This document shows, piece after piece, positions 1-6,787 of a stretch of 6,787 nt of DNA (the first letter of the stretch is position 1; each line of letters begins with the position of its first letter). The translations under genes were made by a program, and so were the position numbers. The notes under the pieces are model-generated. The model had not been told where the DNA came from, ran no database searches, and saw only the letters and a list, made by a program, of their open reading frames with translations. Source of the stretch: Candidatus Eiseniibacteriota bacterium. GTDB lineage: Bacteria; JAFGKV01. Location of the stretch: contig JALOPK010000179.1 of assembly GCA_025453925.1 (NCBI GenBank), positions 1 through 6,787 of the forward strand, given 5' to 3'.

Positions 1-1137
1 GCGGCGGATGGCTGGCGCCTGGCCCGAAGCCGTGGGCTGGCGCTCGCCCTGGCCCTGTTGCTGCCCGCCGCCGCCGTCGGTCTCTACCTGCTGGTGGGCG
101 ACCCCGGGGCCGTGGCCGAGGAGGCCGCCGCCGAGCAGGCCCAAGCCCACGGGATGGCGGATCTGGAGGAGGCGATCCGCACCCAGATCGCGCATCTGGC
201 CGAGGACCCCAAGGACGCCGCGGGCTGGGCCACCCTGGGCATGACCTACGCCGGCATCGGTCGCTGGCCCGAGGCGGAGCGCGCCCTGGCCGAGGCCTAC
301 GCCCTGGCGCCCAAGGAGGCCTTCATCGTCTCCGCCTACGCGGAGGCCCTGGCGGTTCAGGCGGGCCGGGACCTGAGCGGCCGACCCATGGAATTGGTCC
401 GCGAGGCCCTGGAGCTCTCCACTCAGGACGAGAAGGCCCTGGAGCTGGCCGCGGTGTACGCCTACCAGTCCGGCGAGTATGCCCAGGCCGCCTACTACTT
501 CCGCCAGCTCCTCAAGGTCCTGCCGGAGGACAGCCCCTACGCGGCGGACATCCGGGCCGCCATGCGCGAGGCCAAGGGGCGGGCCGAGGAGGCCGCCTTC
601 GGGCCGCCGCTGGACACCCGCCCGGCCGATGCCGGGGGCGAGGGTGCTGCACCGGCCGCCACCATCAGCGGCCAGGTGGAACTGGCCCCGGACCTGGCGG
701 GGCGGATCACCGGCAAGGAGTCCCTGTTCCTCGTCGCACGGCCGGTCAGCGGCGGGGGTACCCCCCTGGCCGGGCTCAAGACCACCGCGGGACTCCTTCC
801 CGTTCCCTTCACCCTGGACGACAGCCTGGCCTTGCTGCCCGACCAACCCCTCTCACAACAGGACAACGTGACCCTCGTGGCCCGCATCTCCCTGTCCGGC
901 GGCACCGAGCCCATGCCCGGGGACCTGGAGGGGGAGATCGGCTGCTTCATCGACCACACCCATCATCGGAATCACGAGTTGTTGGGCAATGTAGCCCCGG
1001 CGGACGTCTGCTTCGGGAGGGTCAAGGGGCTCCTGACGGAACGAGAGGAGAGCGAGCGCTTGACGCGCGAGGCGTGGCGCCGGCATCACTCGCAGTCGCT
1101 GCAGCAGGCCGCGCCACCTCAGGCACATCCGGGGTGA
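1..1137 (+). CDS. ccmI: CcmI-like cytochrome c biogenesis TPR protein, 5'-partial, with a transposase-derived C-terminal tail
   Basis: CcmI (the C-terminal part of CcmH in enterobacteria) is an inner-membrane chaperone that holds apocytochrome c for haem ligation in System I maturation. Frame 1 is open from the first base, so the true start and first membrane helix lie upstream. Numbering from base 1, a hydrophobic helix spans about residues 9-33. TPR-like helices follow at about 69-102 (WATLGMTYAGIGRWPEAERA) and 144-178. The CcmI C-terminal beta domain runs from about 222 (ISGQVELAPDLAGRI, FTLDDSLAL) to GDLEGEIG near 315. Normal members continue for a short stretch past this point. Here the protein instead switches to IS3-type transposase sequence (HELLGNVAPADVCFGR) and stops at 1135-1137. 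The ATG codons inside the window are internal. The family call is secure; whether the hybrid still works is unknown. Codons before the join are more strongly G/C-ending than those after it. Confidence 0.85.
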   Translation, partial: AADGWRLARSRGLALALALLLPAAAVGLYLLVGDPGAVAEEAAAEQAQAHGMADLEEAIRTQIAHLAEDPKDAAGWATLGMTYAGIGRWPEAERALAEAYALAPKEAFIVSAYAEALAVQAGRDLSGRPMELVREALELSTQDEKALELAAVYAYQSGEYAQAAYYFRQLLKVLPEDSPYAADIRAAMREAKGRAEEAAFGPPLDTRPADAGGEGAAPAATISGQVELAPDLAGRITGKESLFLVARPVSGGGTPLAGLKTTAGLLPVPFTLDDSLALLPDQPLSQQDNVTLVARISLSGGTEPMPGDLEGEIGCFIDHTHHRNHELLGNVAPADVCFGRVKGLLTEREESERLTREAWRRHHSQSLQQAAPPQAHPG

Positions 1138-1226: not shown

Positions 1227-2420
1227 CTACCCGGGATTGCTCAGGTAGTTGCGGATCATCAGCGCTGCGGTCGCCCCCTCGCCGGCGGCTGAGGCCGCCT
1301 GTTTGGTGGATCCCAATCGCACATCCCCGGCCGCGAACAGGCCCGGGAGCGAAGTCATGAGCTGGCCATCTGTCCTCACAAAGCCATACGGATCCAGGTC
1401 GGCCAGGCCTTGCACCAGGTTGCTGTTGGGCTCCAGTCCGATGAAGACGAACACGCCGTCGTACTGCCATTCCTTGCGTTCGCCGGTGGTGCGATCCCTG
1501 ACCACGACCGCCTGCAGCCTGTCCTCTCCCTGAAACGCCTCAACGGCGTGGTTGACTGTCACGGACATGTCCGATCGCTTCGCCACCTTCTCCTGAAGGA
1601 TGGCGCTGGCCTTGACCTGGGGTGCGAATTCGACGATGTCAACCCGGGACGCAAACTTCGTCAGAAACAGGCCTTCCTCGAACCCACTGTTGCCTCCGCC
1701 GATCACCAGGACCCGTTTGCCCTTGTAGAACGCTCCGTCGCAGGTGGCGCAGAAGTGCACGTTGGTCCCAACCAGCTCTTGCTCACCCGGGATGCCAAGC
1801 CTGCGGTAGCGCGCGCCCGTGGCGAGGAGGGCGGCCTTCGTGCCGTATTGGCCCCCGCCGGCCGTGGTCACGCAAATGTACTGCCCGTCGGGCGAGACGT
1901 CGGAGACCTCCTGCGCCTGGAGGATCTCCACGCCGAATCGCCGCGCCTGGCGAGTCAAGCGATCGGCGAATTCAGCTCCCGAGATCCCCTCATCGAAGCC
2001 GGGGAAATTGTCCAGCACTTGAGTGATCCCCGCTTGACCGCCGAGCCCGGCCTTCTCGATCACCAGGGTCTCCATGCCCTCCCGGGCGAGGTAGAGCGCC
2101 GCCGTGAGTCCGGTGGGGCCGCCCCCGATGACGATCGCATCGTAGAACGCCCGCTGTGCCTTGGCCTGCAGGCCGAGTTTCCCGGCCAGCTCGGCGTCGG
2201 ACGGTTCGACCAGGATCGAACCATCCGGGAAGACGATCGTGGGAATGATCCGTTTGCCTCCATTCACCTGCTGCACGTAGGCCATAGCGGCGGGATCCTG
2301 CTCGATGTCGACACTGACGTACGGGATCCGCTGCTCGCCGAAGAAGCGCTTGGCGCGCTTGCAGTCGGGGCACCACACGGTGCTGTAGACCACGATGTTG
2401 GCTGGTTGCGGACCGCTCAA
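1227..2420 (-). CDS. Glutaredoxin-like domain fused to an AhpF/thioredoxin-reductase-type flavoprotein
   Basis: Predicted cytosolic FAD disulfide reductase of 397 residues. Residues 8-84 form a small glutaredoxin/mycoredoxin-like fold with CPDC at 17-20 and cis-Pro60 (IIPTIVFPDG). The reductase begins near 92 with the FAD motif GGGPTG at 99-104, then CATCD at 224-228 (redox cysteines), a second nucleotide fold GGGNSG at 241-246, and the FAD-binding GLFAAGD ending at Asp366. After the second fold the sequence reads VEFAPQVKA, as in AhpF, not the HRRxxxR of NADPH-dependent TrxR. Preference for NADH is inferred from Glu264. Electrons would pass NADH > FAD > CATC > CPDC > a partner that is not in the window. 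The start chosen is TTG at 2420, because GGGAGG lies 6 bases upstream and a -10 box ends only 10 bases before the alternative GTG at 2450 (407 aa). AhpF normally carries a double thioredoxin fold at its N-terminus, so this version is shorter. Confidence 0.88.
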   Translation of the reverse strand: MSGPQPANIVVYSTVWCPDCKRAKRFFGEQRIPYVSVDIEQDPAAMAYVQQVNGGKRIIPTIVFPDGSILVEPSDAELAGKLGLQAKAQRAFYDAIVIGGGPTGLTAALYLAREGMETLVIEKAGLGGQAGITQVLDNFPGFDEGISGAEFADRLTRQARRFGVEILQAQEVSDVSPDGQYICVTTAGGGQYGTKAALLATGARYRRLGIPGEQELVGTNVHFCATCDGAFYKGKRVLVIGGGNSGFEEGLFLTKFASRVDIVEFAPQVKASAILQEKVAKRSDMSVTVNHAVEAFQGEDRLQAVVVRDRTTGERKEWQYDGVFVFIGLEPNSNLVQGLADLDPYGFVRTDGQLMTSLPGLFAAGDVRLGSTKQAASAAGEGATAALMIRNYLSNPG

Positions 2421-2426
2421 GCTTCG

Positions 2427-2432
2427 CCTCCC
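2427..2432 (-). promoter_or_regulatory. Ribosome binding site deciding the TTG start of the reductase
   Basis: On the minus strand GGGAGG stands 6 bases before TTG at 2420-2418. The upstream in-frame GTG at 2450 has only weak purine runs before it, so TTG is the better-supported start. Confidence 0.6.
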
Positions 2433-2459
2433 GGGGATGGCCGGACGCACCTACCGGCA

Positions 2460-2465
2460 ATCATA
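2460..2465 (-). promoter_or_regulatory. Candidate -10 box of the reductase gene
   Basis: The minus strand reads TATGAT, one mismatch from TATAAT. It would start transcription near 2453, giving a leader of about 33 bases to the TTG start. No good -35 hexamer is visible 16-18 bases upstream, so the promoter is weak, activator-dependent or wrongly called. Confidence 0.4.
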
Positions 2466-2526
2466 CTCCTGGACTCCAGAGGCACTCTCGCCGAGATGCG
2501 GTGGGTGGTGCCTGCCGCAGACCCCA

Positions 2527-2639
2527 GAGGCCTGGCGTCGCCAGCACACGCAGCGGCCGTGGATGCCTGCGCGACGGAGGCAAGTGCAGACGCGTGCCTC
2601 AGCTCGGAGCCCTACCTTGTCTCACTCCGGTTGACACGA
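2527..2639 (+). mobile_element. Second decayed IS3-like right end
   Basis: Bases 2527-2553 match 1069-1095, the end of the transposase tail, at 22 of 27 positions and encode EAWRRQHTQ against EAWRRHHSQ. About 90 bases later, 2619-2639 matches 1182-1202 at 17 of 21 positions. The order, the strand and the near-equal spacing (110 versus 131 bases between matching points) point to a second, more decayed copy of the same type of IS end. Sequence upstream of 2527 no longer matches the transposase in any frame. This copy and the one at 946-1202 lie in the same direction on either side of the reductase gene. Confidence 0.5.
2619..2639 (+). repeat. IS-end motif, copy 2, carrying a TTGACA hexamer
   Basis: Begins GTCTCACTC and ends TTGACACGA. 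Bases 2631-2636 are a perfect -35 hexamer pointing outward from the remnant, a feature of many IS3-family ends. No matching -10 box is seen 16-18 bases downstream. Confidence 0.5.
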
Positions 2640-2805
2640 AATGCATCGGATTGGTAACCGTGCCACCAGGGCTCGCGTTGAGGCGTGCGATTGTCCTTCG
2701 GAGAAGTCTCGCCGTATCAGGATCACGCCCCCCTTGGAGAGTGGTCGCCTGCGGCCCGCAGTTCAGGACCCGCTGAAGGCTGCGTGCCGGACGTTGTTCT
2801 CGCTA

Positions 2806-3020
2806 GAGGCGACGATGGGATTCGCCTGCCCTGGCCGCACTTCGTCCCGATGACTTTCAGCAGGCCAGGGAATCCATGGCGGGGGCCTCGCAAGGAGCGA
2901 CGCCGGCAAATCAGACACATGCTCGTTTCTCGCCGGAGTCCGTGTGAGGGTCCGCTGATTCTGCATCTCCTGGTGGGCTCAGCGCTTGTCCGACTGACGG
3001 GGCCGGGCGACGGACAATTA
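2806..3020 (+). repeat. Diverged direct repeat, copy A
   Basis: Starts at GAGGCGACGATGGGATTCG and matches copy B (6592-6787) in the same direction. The best block is 2911-2963 against 6679-6731, with 44 of 53 bases identical and no gaps, including a shared GCTGATTCTG at its end. Looser similarity with small gaps continues on both sides to about 3020. Translation of both copies on the minus strand does not keep the protein better than the DNA, so the repeat is probably non-coding. The family is unknown to me; a miniature or decayed mobile element is the likeliest explanation. Confidence 0.6.
2818..2875 (+). repeat. Inverted repeat / hairpin inside repeat copy A
   Basis: CCCTGGCC (2829-2836) pairs perfectly with GGCCAGGG (2863-2870) around a 26-base loop. 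The stem can extend through GGATT (2818-2822) with AATCC (2871-2875), leaving a 6-base bulge on the left arm. Copy B does not keep this pairing clearly. Confidence 0.4.
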
Positions 3021-3111
3021 CGCGGCTCGACCGTTCAGGAGTCGGGCCATCTCCTCGGGGATTGGAGGTCAAGGATCCTCGCTCGATTTCTAGTGACAAG
3101 TGCCCAATGGT

Positions 3112-3129
3112 GGGTTCGTGCTCGAACCC
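3112..3129 (+). repeat. Short perfect hairpin, 7-bp stem and 4-base loop
   Basis: GGGTTCG (3112-3118) and CGAACCC (3123-3129) enclose TGCT. It resembles a tRNA T-arm at first sight, but the loop is too short and no tRNA surrounds it. No T-run follows, so it is not a standard intrinsic terminator. Confidence 0.4.
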
Positions 3130-3369
3130 GACCCCTTCGCTCGCAACTGCAATGTCCTTCGGACTACCATTCGTACTGGTACACGAAACGGGGGCAGAAG
3201 AGGCGGGCGAGCTGGGCAAGCCAGGTGAGAAGAAGTACGTCGTCACGGGGCCTGACATTCTGATGTGGAATGATGTGCTGCACGCATGATCGAGTCCAGA
3301 CAGCCCGTCCTGGCTGGCGACGTACCCGTTGAGGGAGCGGATGTGCGGCTTTGGCTGGAGGCCCCATGA

Positions 3370-3390
3370 GTCTCACTCTGGTGCATACGA
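3370..3390 (+). repeat. IS-end motif, possible copy 3
   Basis: Begins GTCTCACTC and ends ATACGA, matching copy 2 at 17 of 21 bases. No transposase tail is recognisable upstream, so this could be chance or the last trace of another end. It sits about 20 bases upstream of the lipoprotein gene's -10 box. Confidence 0.3.
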
Positions 3391-3406
3391 TGCGTGCGTG
3401 AAGAGA

Positions 3407-3415
3407 TGCTAGAAT
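3407..3415 (+). promoter_or_regulatory. Extended -10 promoter of the lipoprotein gene
   Basis: TGC followed by TAGAAT (3410-3415) fits the extended -10 form TGnTATAAT with one mismatch. Transcription would start near 3421, giving a leader of about 70 bases. This argues against the upstream in-frame GTG at 3394. No clear -35 is seen, as is common for extended -10 promoters. Confidence 0.45.
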
Positions 3416-3489
3416 CCCCTGTCTGTTGGCGTCGTGTGATGGCGCGTCACATACAAGCGAATAGGCGACTCCCTCCACAGGGAGCGTCG

Positions 3490-6279
3490 ATGAAGGAGAT
3501 GAGGATGCAGAACAGATGCTCCACATCCGAAGTCCGCCATCTCCTGCCGCTGATCGTCACGGCTTCCGTGATGGTACTGGGTGCCTGCTCGCCGGGAGGC
3601 ACTCCTGCTCCGAGTAGCGGTGACACGGAACCGCCCGATGCGGAGTCGGCGTCCCTGTCCGCCCCGGAGATGGAGCCCGGCAGCGAGCGCTTCGAGGAGT
3701 CCTTCGACGATCCTTCGCTGGCCGGATGGGAGACATCGCCAGGCGTCAGCGTCGTCGACGGTGCGCTGTCCATCCCCTCCGACGGCTTTGCCTTCCAGCC
3801 AGGCCGGTGGTCGGAGTTCTCGCTCTCGGTGCGTGCCCGCCGAAGCGGAGGCGGGCTGCTGGGTATTCGTTACGTGAGCACGGATGCCGGGGGCTACCTG
3901 TTGAGCCTGGGCGAGGAGGGGGCGTCACTGTCGCGTGAATCCGAAGGCTCGTCGGGCGAACTGGCCTCAGCCAGTGCGGCGATTCCGGCGGGTGGATGGG
4001 TCGAGGTCACGATCCGCGTGGTCGACGGTGAGCACGCGATCGCGCTAGACGGCGAGACGGTGCTGACTGCCAGTGATGCGGTGCCGCTGCGAGCGGGAGG
4101 ACTTGTGCTCCGGGCGCAGGGCGACGCCCCCGGCCAGTTCGACGATATCTCGATCGGCCCGGCGGAGGGAATCCCTGCCATGCCGGCAACAACGACCGGA
4201 CAGCCGGATGTCCAGACTGGGACATGGCGAAGACTGGGGGGGCCGATCGGCGGATTGGGGTACGACATCCGCTACAACTTCGCCGATCACAATGTCTGGT
4301 ATGTGACCGATGCCTGGTCGGGTTTCTACATCAGTACCGACAATGGAGGGACGTGGGAGCTCAGCAACACGGGGATCTCCGCCCGCAAGCAGATCGACGG
4401 AATTCCGATCTTCAGTGCGACGGTGGACCCTCACAATCCCAACACGATTTGGATCGGCACGGACATCACGGCGGATATCTACAAATCCACGGACGGAGGA
4501 CACACGTGGGTGGAGATGACCAACGGCGTGGATCCCGACCTGCGGCCGATGAGCTTCCGCGGCTTCACCGTCGATCCCCGCACCTCCGACATCGTGTATG
4601 CGATGGCCGAGATCGCCAGCCCGGCATGGACGCCGGATCACAGCCCTCGCAAAGGCACCGAGGGACTGGACATGACCCAAGGCATTGTCTACAGGACGAC
4701 CGATGGCGGCCGCAGCTGGAAGGAGATCTGGCGAGGGGATAACCTTGCCCGCTACTGCTGGATCGATCCCCGCGATCCGGATGTGCTCTACATCTCCACC
4801 GGCATCTTCGACCGGGACGCCGCTAATTCGAGCGTTGAGGACGGATTGGCCGGGGGCGTGGGGGTTCTCAAGTCCTTAGATGGTGGAGAGACGTGGCGCG
4901 TGCTCAACCATGACAATGGACTGACCGACCTCTACATCGGCAGCTTGTACATGAAACCCCAGGAGCCGGACGTGCTGCTCGCTGCGGCCGGCCACAACAC
5001 GTGGTCTCGCTCTGGCGCGGAGTTCACGGGCGGCATCTTCCTGACAGAGGACGGCGGCGAAACCTGGGAGCGCGTAATCGCCGACAACGAGATCTTCAGC
5101 ACGGTCGAGTTCTGCGACTCCGATCCGGAGGTCGCCTACGCGGGAAGCAGCCGAGCTATCTATCGTAGCGACGATGGGGGACACAGCTGGCAGCGCTTCA
5201 CTCGCTCCAACAACACATGGGGGTCTCCAGGAGTGGTGGCCGGCTTCCCGATTGACATGCAGTGTGATCCCGCAGATCCGGAGCGGATCTTCATCAACAA
5301 CTACCTGGGCGGCAACTTCGTCTCGACAGACGGGGGCCAGACGTGGACGCTGTCCAGCGATGGCTACACCGGCGAGCAGGTCAATACCGTAATCGCCGCA
5401 CCAGGTGCGGTCGTTGTCGGCAGCCGCAGCGGGGTATTCCGCTACGATGATGACGGCGATTCGGGCTGGATCGGCCTCGTCAATCCGCCGGAGGAACTCG
5501 GGGCGAAGTTCAACGAGATCATTGCACTGGCGATCGATCCGGGAGACCCGAACCATCTGCTGGCTGTCCCGATGGACCTGAACGGAGTCGTGTACAGCAC
5601 AGATGGCGGTCAGAGATGGAAGGTGGGGAGTGTCTTCGGCCCCCGGCGCCTGGTGTTCGCACCCAGCGATCCATCGATCGTGTACGCAGCGGCCGAGACC
5701 GGACTGCATGTCTCGCACGACGGTGGCGTGAACTGGGAGGCGGTGGCCCATGAACAGGTCACCGGATTCACGCCATCGATCGTAGCCGTGCAGCCCGACG
5801 ATGCCGACACCTTGTACGTTGGGCGGCCCGACGCTGGCGTACTGAAGACGCAGGACGGGGGTCAATCCTGGTCACTTCTCACGGCTGGGCTCCCCGAGGC
5901 GCCTGTCCTGGCTCTGGCGATTGACGCGGGCGATGTCACGACCTTGTTCGCCACCACCGGCGCAGGGCAGCCTTCGGTGGGAGGAGCGGGCGTCTTTCGA
6001 AGCACAGACGGCGGATCGACCTGGGCGCAGGTCACCGCCGGGCTCCCTCCTGAGGGGAGATTCCTGAACGTGGTGATTGATCCGACGAACAGCCAGACCG
6101 TCTACGTTGCCGATGTCCTTTCGGGGGTGTACGTCTATTCGGATGGCGGCACGACGTGGGCCTCCCTGAACATCGGGCTCCAGCACAGGGAGGTCAATGC
6201 ATTGTCCATTTCTGCGGACGGTCGGTACCTGTATGCCGGCACGTGGGGAGATGGGGTGTACCAGCTGGTGACACACTAG
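3490..6279 (+). CDS. Large predicted surface lipoprotein with jelly-roll-like domain and Asp-box (BNR) beta-propeller
   Basis: 929 residues, predicted exported. Residues 1-33 are a lipoprotein signal: hydrophobic 18-32 and lipobox LGAC with lipidated Cys33. Position +2 is Ser, which in enterobacteria favours the outer membrane. A Ser/Pro/Gly linker (34-65) leads to a concanavalin-like domain at about 66-222 (FEESFDDPSLAGW to GQFDDISIG). From about 245 the chain is all beta-propeller. It carries 12 clear Asp boxes of the S-x-D-G-G-x-T-W type plus one degenerate DDDGDSGW, ending with YLYAGTWGDGVYQL. This is the fold family of sortilin/YCF48-type and GH74-type proteins. Thirteen blades suggest two propellers. 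GH74 xyloglucanases also have two seven-bladed propellers, but I cannot identify catalytic residues and claim no enzyme activity. ATG 3505 is an equally good start. The upstream in-frame GTG at 3394 would bury the signal peptide. No operon partner is present. Confidence 0.85.
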   Translation: MKEMRMQNRCSTSEVRHLLPLIVTASVMVLGACSPGGTPAPSSGDTEPPDAESASLSAPEMEPGSERFEESFDDPSLAGWETSPGVSVVDGALSIPSDGFAFQPGRWSEFSLSVRARRSGGGLLGIRYVSTDAGGYLLSLGEEGASLSRESEGSSGELASASAAIPAGGWVEVTIRVVDGEHAIALDGETVLTASDAVPLRAGGLVLRAQGDAPGQFDDISIGPAEGIPAMPATTTGQPDVQTGTWRRLGGPIGGLGYDIRYNFADHNVWYVTDAWSGFYISTDNGGTWELSNTGISARKQIDGIPIFSATVDPHNPNTIWIGTDITADIYKSTDGGHTWVEMTNGVDPDLRPMSFRGFTVDPRTSDIVYAMAEIASPAWTPDHSPRKGTEGLDMTQGIVYRTTDGGRSWKEIWRGDNLARYCWIDPRDPDVLYISTGIFDRDAANSSVEDGLAGGVGVLKSLDGGETWRVLNHDNGLTDLYIGSLYMKPQEPDVLLAAAGHNTWSRSGAEFTGGIFLTEDGGETWERVIADNEIFSTVEFCDSDPEVAYAGSSRAIYRSDDGGHSWQRFTRSNNTWGSPGVVAGFPIDMQCDPADPERIFINNYLGGNFVSTDGGQTWTLSSDGYTGEQVNTVIAAPGAVVVGSRSGVFRYDDDGDSGWIGLVNPPEELGAKFNEIIALAIDPGDPNHLLAVPMDLNGVVYSTDGGQRWKVGSVFGPRRLVFAPSDPSIVYAAAETGLHVSHDGGVNWEAVAHEQVTGFTPSIVAVQPDDADTLYVGRPDAGVLKTQDGGQSWSLLTAGLPEAPVLALAIDAGDVTTLFATTGAGQPSVGGAGVFRSTDGGSTWAQVTAGLPPEGRFLNVVIDPTNSQTVYVADVLSGVYVYSDGGTTWASLNIGLQHREVNALSISADGRYLYAGTWGDGVYQLVTH
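3493..3498 (+). promoter_or_regulatory. Ribosome binding site, ambiguous between two ATG starts
   Basis: AAGGAG at 3493-3498 is 6 bases before ATG 3505. A second site, AGGGAG at 3479-3484, is 5 bases before ATG 3490. Both starts are well placed and differ by only five residues. Confidence 0.45.
4333..6159 (+). repeat. Array of 13 Asp-box motifs in the lipoprotein gene
   Basis: Motif codons begin near 4333, 4486, 4696, 4873, 5044, 5167, 5323, 5446 (degenerate), 5596, 5713, 5848, 6001 and 6136. Spacing ranges from 117 to 210 bases, that is 39-70 residues per blade. The first blades are the longest and the later ones more compact, which fits two propellers with different loop lengths. DNA identity between blades is low, so this is an old protein repeat and not recent tandem duplication. 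Confidence 0.8.
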
Positions 6280-6350
6280 GAGCGCGACGATCAATTCCCG
6301 CCCGGTTCTGGTCCGCCGAAGATAGGCCAGGCTCGTCCACGCGATCACGG

Positions 6351-6376
6351 TGCAGGCAGGGAAGTATCCTCCTGCA
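6351..6376 (+). terminator. Hairpin 72 bases after the lipoprotein stop, possible terminator
   Basis: TGCAGGcAGG (6351-6360) pairs with CCTCCTGCA (6368-6376): nine base pairs with one bulged C and a 7-base loop. No T-run follows, so it is at best an incomplete intrinsic terminator or a transcript-stabilising stem. Confidence 0.3.
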
Positions 6377-6459
6377 TGGTCATCTCTCGGCAGGCTTGCG
6401 GTGGACGGTCAACGAGTTTGTCGCCGGGGAGGACGCTGCAGTACCTGCCCCCGTTCTCT

Positions 6460-6487
6460 GTACCAGGGTCTATGGTAGACCGTGTAC
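6460..6487 (+). repeat. Imperfect hairpin with perfect 6-bp core
   Basis: GGTCTA (6467-6472) and TAGACC (6476-6481) face each other across TGG. Outer GTAC copies at 6460-6463 and 6484-6487 can add four pairs across a small internal loop. TCTG and CTCTG flank the two sides. Confidence 0.4.
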
Positions 6488-6505
6488 TCTGCGGAGGAGG
6501 GGGCC

Positions 6506-6563
6506 ACCGTGCTTAGGGAGTGCATACCGGGAATTGGGGCGCGGAAGCCACTCCCAGCACGGT
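6506..6563 (+). repeat. Strong inverted repeat, 15-bp stem with 26-base loop
   Basis: The left arm ACCGTGCT-TA-GGGAGTG (6506-6522) pairs perfectly with CACTCCC-AGCACGGT (6549-6563) except for the bulged TA. It is the strongest dyad I found in the window and lies about 30 bases before repeat copy B. No T-run follows on either strand. It may be the paired ends of a tiny element, or an RNA or protein-binding hairpin. Confidence 0.55.
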
Positions 6564-6591
6564 CTTGCCTACAGTGGCTGCCCATTGCCTT

Positions 6592-6787
6592 GAGGCGATG
6601 ACGGGATTCGTCCCTCGGCCTCGCCTCAGGACGCTTCGCAGGACCCATGGTTGGGATTCTGCAGGACCCGACGGCGCGTCAGACCCTTGCTCGCCTATCC
6701 CCGGATTCCGTGTGAGGATCTGCTGATTCTGGCCTGCGTGGGGACCCAGACCCTTGGCCGTCTCCAGGGGCGAGGCAACAGGCAATA
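6592..6787 (+). repeat. Diverged direct repeat, copy B (runs off the window)
   Basis: Starts at GAGGCGATGACGGGATTCG and matches copy A (2806-3020) in the same direction. The 6679-6731 block is 44 of 53 identical to 2911-2963, and weaker similarity continues to the last base. An internal 9-base direct repeat, GCAGGACCC, occurs at 6638-6646 and 6661-6669. The right boundary is beyond the window. Confidence 0.6.

Follow-up and report, generated by a model that had tools for sequence, protein, structure and literature searches.

Two diverged copies of one sequence lie on either side of a lipoprotein gene, which raises the question of what these copies are and whether they make the gene a mobile cassette. 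The window, i.e. the whole stretch of DNA analysed, is one entire contig of 6787 bp in a draft genome of 502 contigs (3.9 Mb, 82% complete). The contig also carries, at 1-1137 (+), a TPR protein of the CcmH/CycH type of cytochrome c biogenesis (72% G+C compared with 64% for the rest of the contig) and, at 1227-2450 (-), a 407-aa protein in which an N-terminal glutaredoxin/mycoredoxin-like domain is fused to a thioredoxin-reductase-like domain, and whose nearest matches in two family members are just 37-38% identical.

The direct repeat and its copy number

The features that set the question were located as follows, the repeats by pairwise alignment and shuffles:

2803..3019, +, repeat copy A (core 2901-2963), putative body of relic 1
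3490..6279, +, lipoprotein gene with lipobox LGAC and a BNR/Sortilin-Vps10-like propeller, 929 aa from the ATG at 3490
6589..6787, +, repeat copy B (core 6669-6731), putative body of relic 2, cut by the contig end

The preliminary description had placed A and B in the same direction about 3.8 kb apart, with 83% identity over the best 53 bases and a weaker likeness over about 200. Both statements were confirmed. Positions 2911-2963 and 6679-6731 share 44 of 53 bases (83%) at an offset of 3768; identity is 79% across the 63 nt of 2901-2963 and 6669-6731; and a gapped alignment of 2803-3019 with 6589-6787 scores 75, whereas the maximum of 300 dinucleotide shuffles is 33. The ungapped block (2901-3019 and 6669-6787) covers 119 nt, over which the copies differ by about 30%. 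The 5' half of the repeat is significant alone (score 32, shuffle maximum 31), and so is the 3' part by itself (P 0.004). To the left of 2803 and 6589 there is no match between both sites (P 0.95). Copy B reaches the last base but one of the contig, which ends at 6787, so that its right edge is out of view.

A search of the full genome and of related genomes had been proposed in the same description as a means to count copies and locate edges. The count is clear: blastn of the own draft genome returned two body copies, A and B, and a profile built from both gave them 112-113 bits, far above the background of at most 17 bits elsewhere in the genome, a level also seen in unrelated genomes. The edges were located in part, with a left limit at 2803/6589 and the right edge of B past the contig end. 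No copies were found in other genomes. Blastn (E 0.01 or better) against 145 genomes gave matches of 24-30 nt and no body copy, a 31-nt pattern with 3 mismatches allowed detected no further copy in 386 genomes, and nothing rose above noise in 13 genomes carrying the lipoprotein or in the phages, plasmids and viral contigs searched; the same class is represented by only two other genomes in the comparison set.

Inverted ends beside both copies

Close to the repeats we observed an inverted match that is absent from the preliminary description. It pairs 3160-3197, to the right of A, with 6445-6482, to the left of B, at 76% identity over 38 nt (pairwise blastn E 0.001), a likeness reached in 0 of 1000 shuffles. 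Within it lies CTGCCCCCGTTnnnTGTACCA, which has no further occurrence in the 3.9 Mb genome and at both sites faces the repeat copy. The motif has zero occurrences in two family-member genomes; some unrelated genomes hold two to five copies each, where the reversed control pattern has none. The corresponding features are:

3160..3202, -, inverted end of IS3 type, putative right end of relic 1 (CTGCCCCCGTTTCGTGTACCAG on the minus strand, 3176-3197; outermost TGACC degraded)
6441..6482, +, inverted end of IS3 type, putative left end of relic 2, (T)ACCTGCCCCCGTTCTCTGTACCAGGGTCTATGGTAGACC
6493..6511, +, GGAGGAGG then GTG, 68 nt inside the left end (from the sequence, compared with the element of viral contig L118)

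Insertion sequences of the IS3 family (IS407-like) end in the CTGCCCCCGTTnnnTGTACCA motif. The ends of IS407A are TGACCTGCCCCCT, with 4-bp target repeats (PMC2877748), and the IRR of ISPa32, an IS3 element, is TGACCTGCCCCCAGTTTTAGTACC (PMC7378034); both start with TGACCTGCCCCC (PMC2877748; PMC7378034). With members of the IS407 group of the IS3 family (IS407A, ISPa32 and the L118 element) the two inverted ends share CTGCCCCC followed by six bases and (T)GTACCA, and similar inner bases. The terminal pattern of the group, TGACCTGCCCCC...TGTACC, is found at these inverted ends except for the outermost TGACC: at both of them the inner 18 defined bases of the IS3-family terminal repeat are exact and the outermost TGACC is altered. 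A further likeness to the group is a GTG or ATG some 70 nt in from the left end, and the spacing of GGAGGAGG and GTG is similar to that of the orfA start in IS3 elements; this GTG does not open a transposase-like reading frame.

The contig L118 carries at 8394-9638 an apparently complete IS3-family element of 1245 bp, with OrfA/OrfB and the motif at its start. Its second inverted end, TGACCTGCTCCCC, is weaker, and TCAG stands on both flanks as a 4-bp repeat. OrfB matches rve_3 (2e-26) and rve (1e-15), and its C-terminus extends into the end. The left inverted end of relic 2 is 84% identical to the IS3 end of L118 over 37 nt and 87.5% identical to L120 over 32 nt, and it matches L092 at 23/23 positions. 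L111, L112 and L117, which represent three genomes, likewise have a C-terminus of IS3 OrfB (53-62% identity) immediately inward of the motif. At several other motif copies no nearby IS3 OrfB was detected, and solo or relic ends of IS3 type probably exist in other genomes as well. None of the other elements with these ends contains the body of about 200 bp. The preliminary description had called the repeat unrecognised and without a match to any known element, which still holds for the 200-bp body and no longer for the ends, which are of IS3-family type.

Repeated IS3-type ends of the form TGACCTGCCCC...TGTACCAC were observed at L110, L113 and L115 and at L096, L097 and L103-L109 (genomes G075, G345 and G007). 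Most adjoin ordinary host genes, with no IS3 transposase detected, and these loci are possibly unrecognised MITE-like or solo-end elements. IS21-like leader sequences in plasmids were considered too and set aside: there the likeness concerns an inner part of other elements, and the end motif was not found.

Two probable relics of one short element, and rival readings

We consider, with a probability of about 0.6, that the repeats are the inner parts of two old copies, in the same direction, of one short transposase-less element with IS3/IS407-like ends. What is left of relic 1 would be body A and the right end, which stops near 3202; relic 2 would start with the left end at 6441 and continue into body B, after which the contig stops. 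Reassembled, the element would measure about 550 bp, with a left arm of 148 nt, a body of about 200 nt and a right arm of about 180 nt. The transposase of a complete IS3-family relative may have recognised the ends and so moved the element, and both copies would have decayed since and presumably be inactive now. Linkage leads us to infer that bodies and ends belong to a single element: two sequences, each present twice in 3.9 Mb, lie 110-145 bp apart at both sites, and the ends face the bodies like two ends of one element. There is no single complete copy; neither has both inverted ends in view, and the partner end of B would fall past the contig. The left side of relic 1 was probably truncated or eroded, since no left end is recognisable beside copy A (best match 10/19, below the shuffle mean) and its left arm is unlike that of relic 2 (2451-2802 and 6280-6588 bear no mutual resemblance).

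Compared with IS3/IS407 elements, the window relics have no trace of OrfA/OrfB, have lost the outermost TGACC and show no visible target repeat. In relic 1 the spacing from body to end, only about 180 nt, leaves no space for orfB and is too small for a full IS3 element of about 1.2 kb. Pfam gave no match in the six frames of 2451-3489 and in four of the six frames of 6280-6787, and tblastn with the L118 OrfB gave only chance-level matches in the former region and none in the latter. The relics resemble IS-derived MITEs in being short and non-coding with IS-like inverted ends, but the window has only two diverged copies with one end visible in each. The preliminary description had listed copies of a miniature element among its readings, and this one gains support from the IS3-family-type inverted ends that adjoin both copies.

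The main rival is a tandem duplication, in which A and B would be the upstream regions of duplicated lipoprotein genes with the second paralogue just past the contig end. A indeed lies upstream of the lipoprotein gene, as B may do for a further such gene, and the nearest relatives have lipoprotein paralogues in tandem, three in L059 and two each in L060 and L064. Upstream of and between the genes of those arrays, however, the sequences have no repeat in common, the 82%-complete draft has no close second paralogue (the best others reach 29-32%), and a duplication would leave the IS3-type ends next to A and B unexplained, so that we regard a duplication as unlikely. Still less probable, in our view, is a conserved regulatory DNA or RNA region next to which IS3-type ends were later inserted independently. 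Conservation is best in a single 53-nt block, and a weak consensus stem can be drawn; the search for compensatory changes that had been proposed yielded one compensatory pair in this stem, against negative Rfam and folding results. The copies fold no better than shuffled sequences (z about -1 to +1.1), their minimum-energy folds differ, Rfam gave no match, and no copies stand beside other genes in the own or related genomes; two separate insertions next to the sole two copies would be a coincidence. The conserved intergenic RNA of the preliminary description thus finds no support (z near 0, no common minimum-energy fold, no Rfam match).

An origin as remnants of a protein-coding gene, either with a minus-strand C-terminus (ESADPHT[DE]SG...) or with a plus-strand frame, appears very improbable. 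The minus-strand frame is open in both copies and ended by the same stop, and one codon phase holds 8 of the 13 core mismatches, but this bias is weak (P 0.06) and the phase is absent among the mismatches from 2986 onward. The best protein similarity over six frames does not exceed what the same changes give when placed at random (P 0.70), and neither Pfam nor PHROGs gave a match in the frames searched in both copies. The codon-phase test, the six-frame simulation and both databases therefore lend a coding origin no support, and the earlier impression that the copies look non-coding was borne out by Pfam, PHROGs and the simulation.

The lipoprotein gene between the probable relics

The lipoprotein gene is flanked by the right end of relic 1 and the left end of relic 2. 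Its closest relative (59%) is on an Ardenticatenia (Chloroflexota) contig and the others are mostly from Chloroflexota; in the same-genus genome the match is no better than 33%, and the second family member gave no match. From this distribution the gene may have been horizontally acquired, or the contig may be mis-binned; the composition of the contig fits the genome bin. Paralogue arrays were observed in Chloroflexota drafts at 190-6991 of L059, 6001-11778 of L060 and 2412-7486 of L064. No repeats flank lipoprotein homologues elsewhere, save one 20-nt match at chance level.

A gene between the inner ends of two elements in the same direction recalls a composite transposon of two same-direction ISs, but here the relics are about 30% divergent and transposase-less, and no target repeat flanks them. 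It is rather improbable that the 200-bp body is an undescribed non-autonomous element with IS3-type ends, two copies of which brought the lipoprotein in as a composite unit. Transfer through such a geometry would be hypothetical, given the age and decay of the relics and the absent target repeat. An integron gene cassette would also place a gene between two direct repeats; this candidate was rejected. Neither attC core (GTTRRRY or RYYYAAC) occurs in copy A or B, and the best IntI match (TIGR02249) in the own draft genome, 82% complete, reaches 79 bits for a cut-off of 265; all 14 control genomes likewise match below the cut-off only. ARAGORN found no tRNA that could mark an attachment site. 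In the preliminary description the repeats had been taken as possible ends of a gene-carrying cassette. They do bracket the gene, which is at most putative mobile cargo, and for an integron cassette, with attC cores and an IntI above the cut-off both lacking, there is no support.

What had appeared as an unrecognised repeat is now recognisable as, most probably, mobile-element debris, an ordinary outcome of small wider importance. Lying between two such relics does not in itself make a gene a mobile cassette, and a relic whose body gives no clue can be identified from a short inverted motif at its end.
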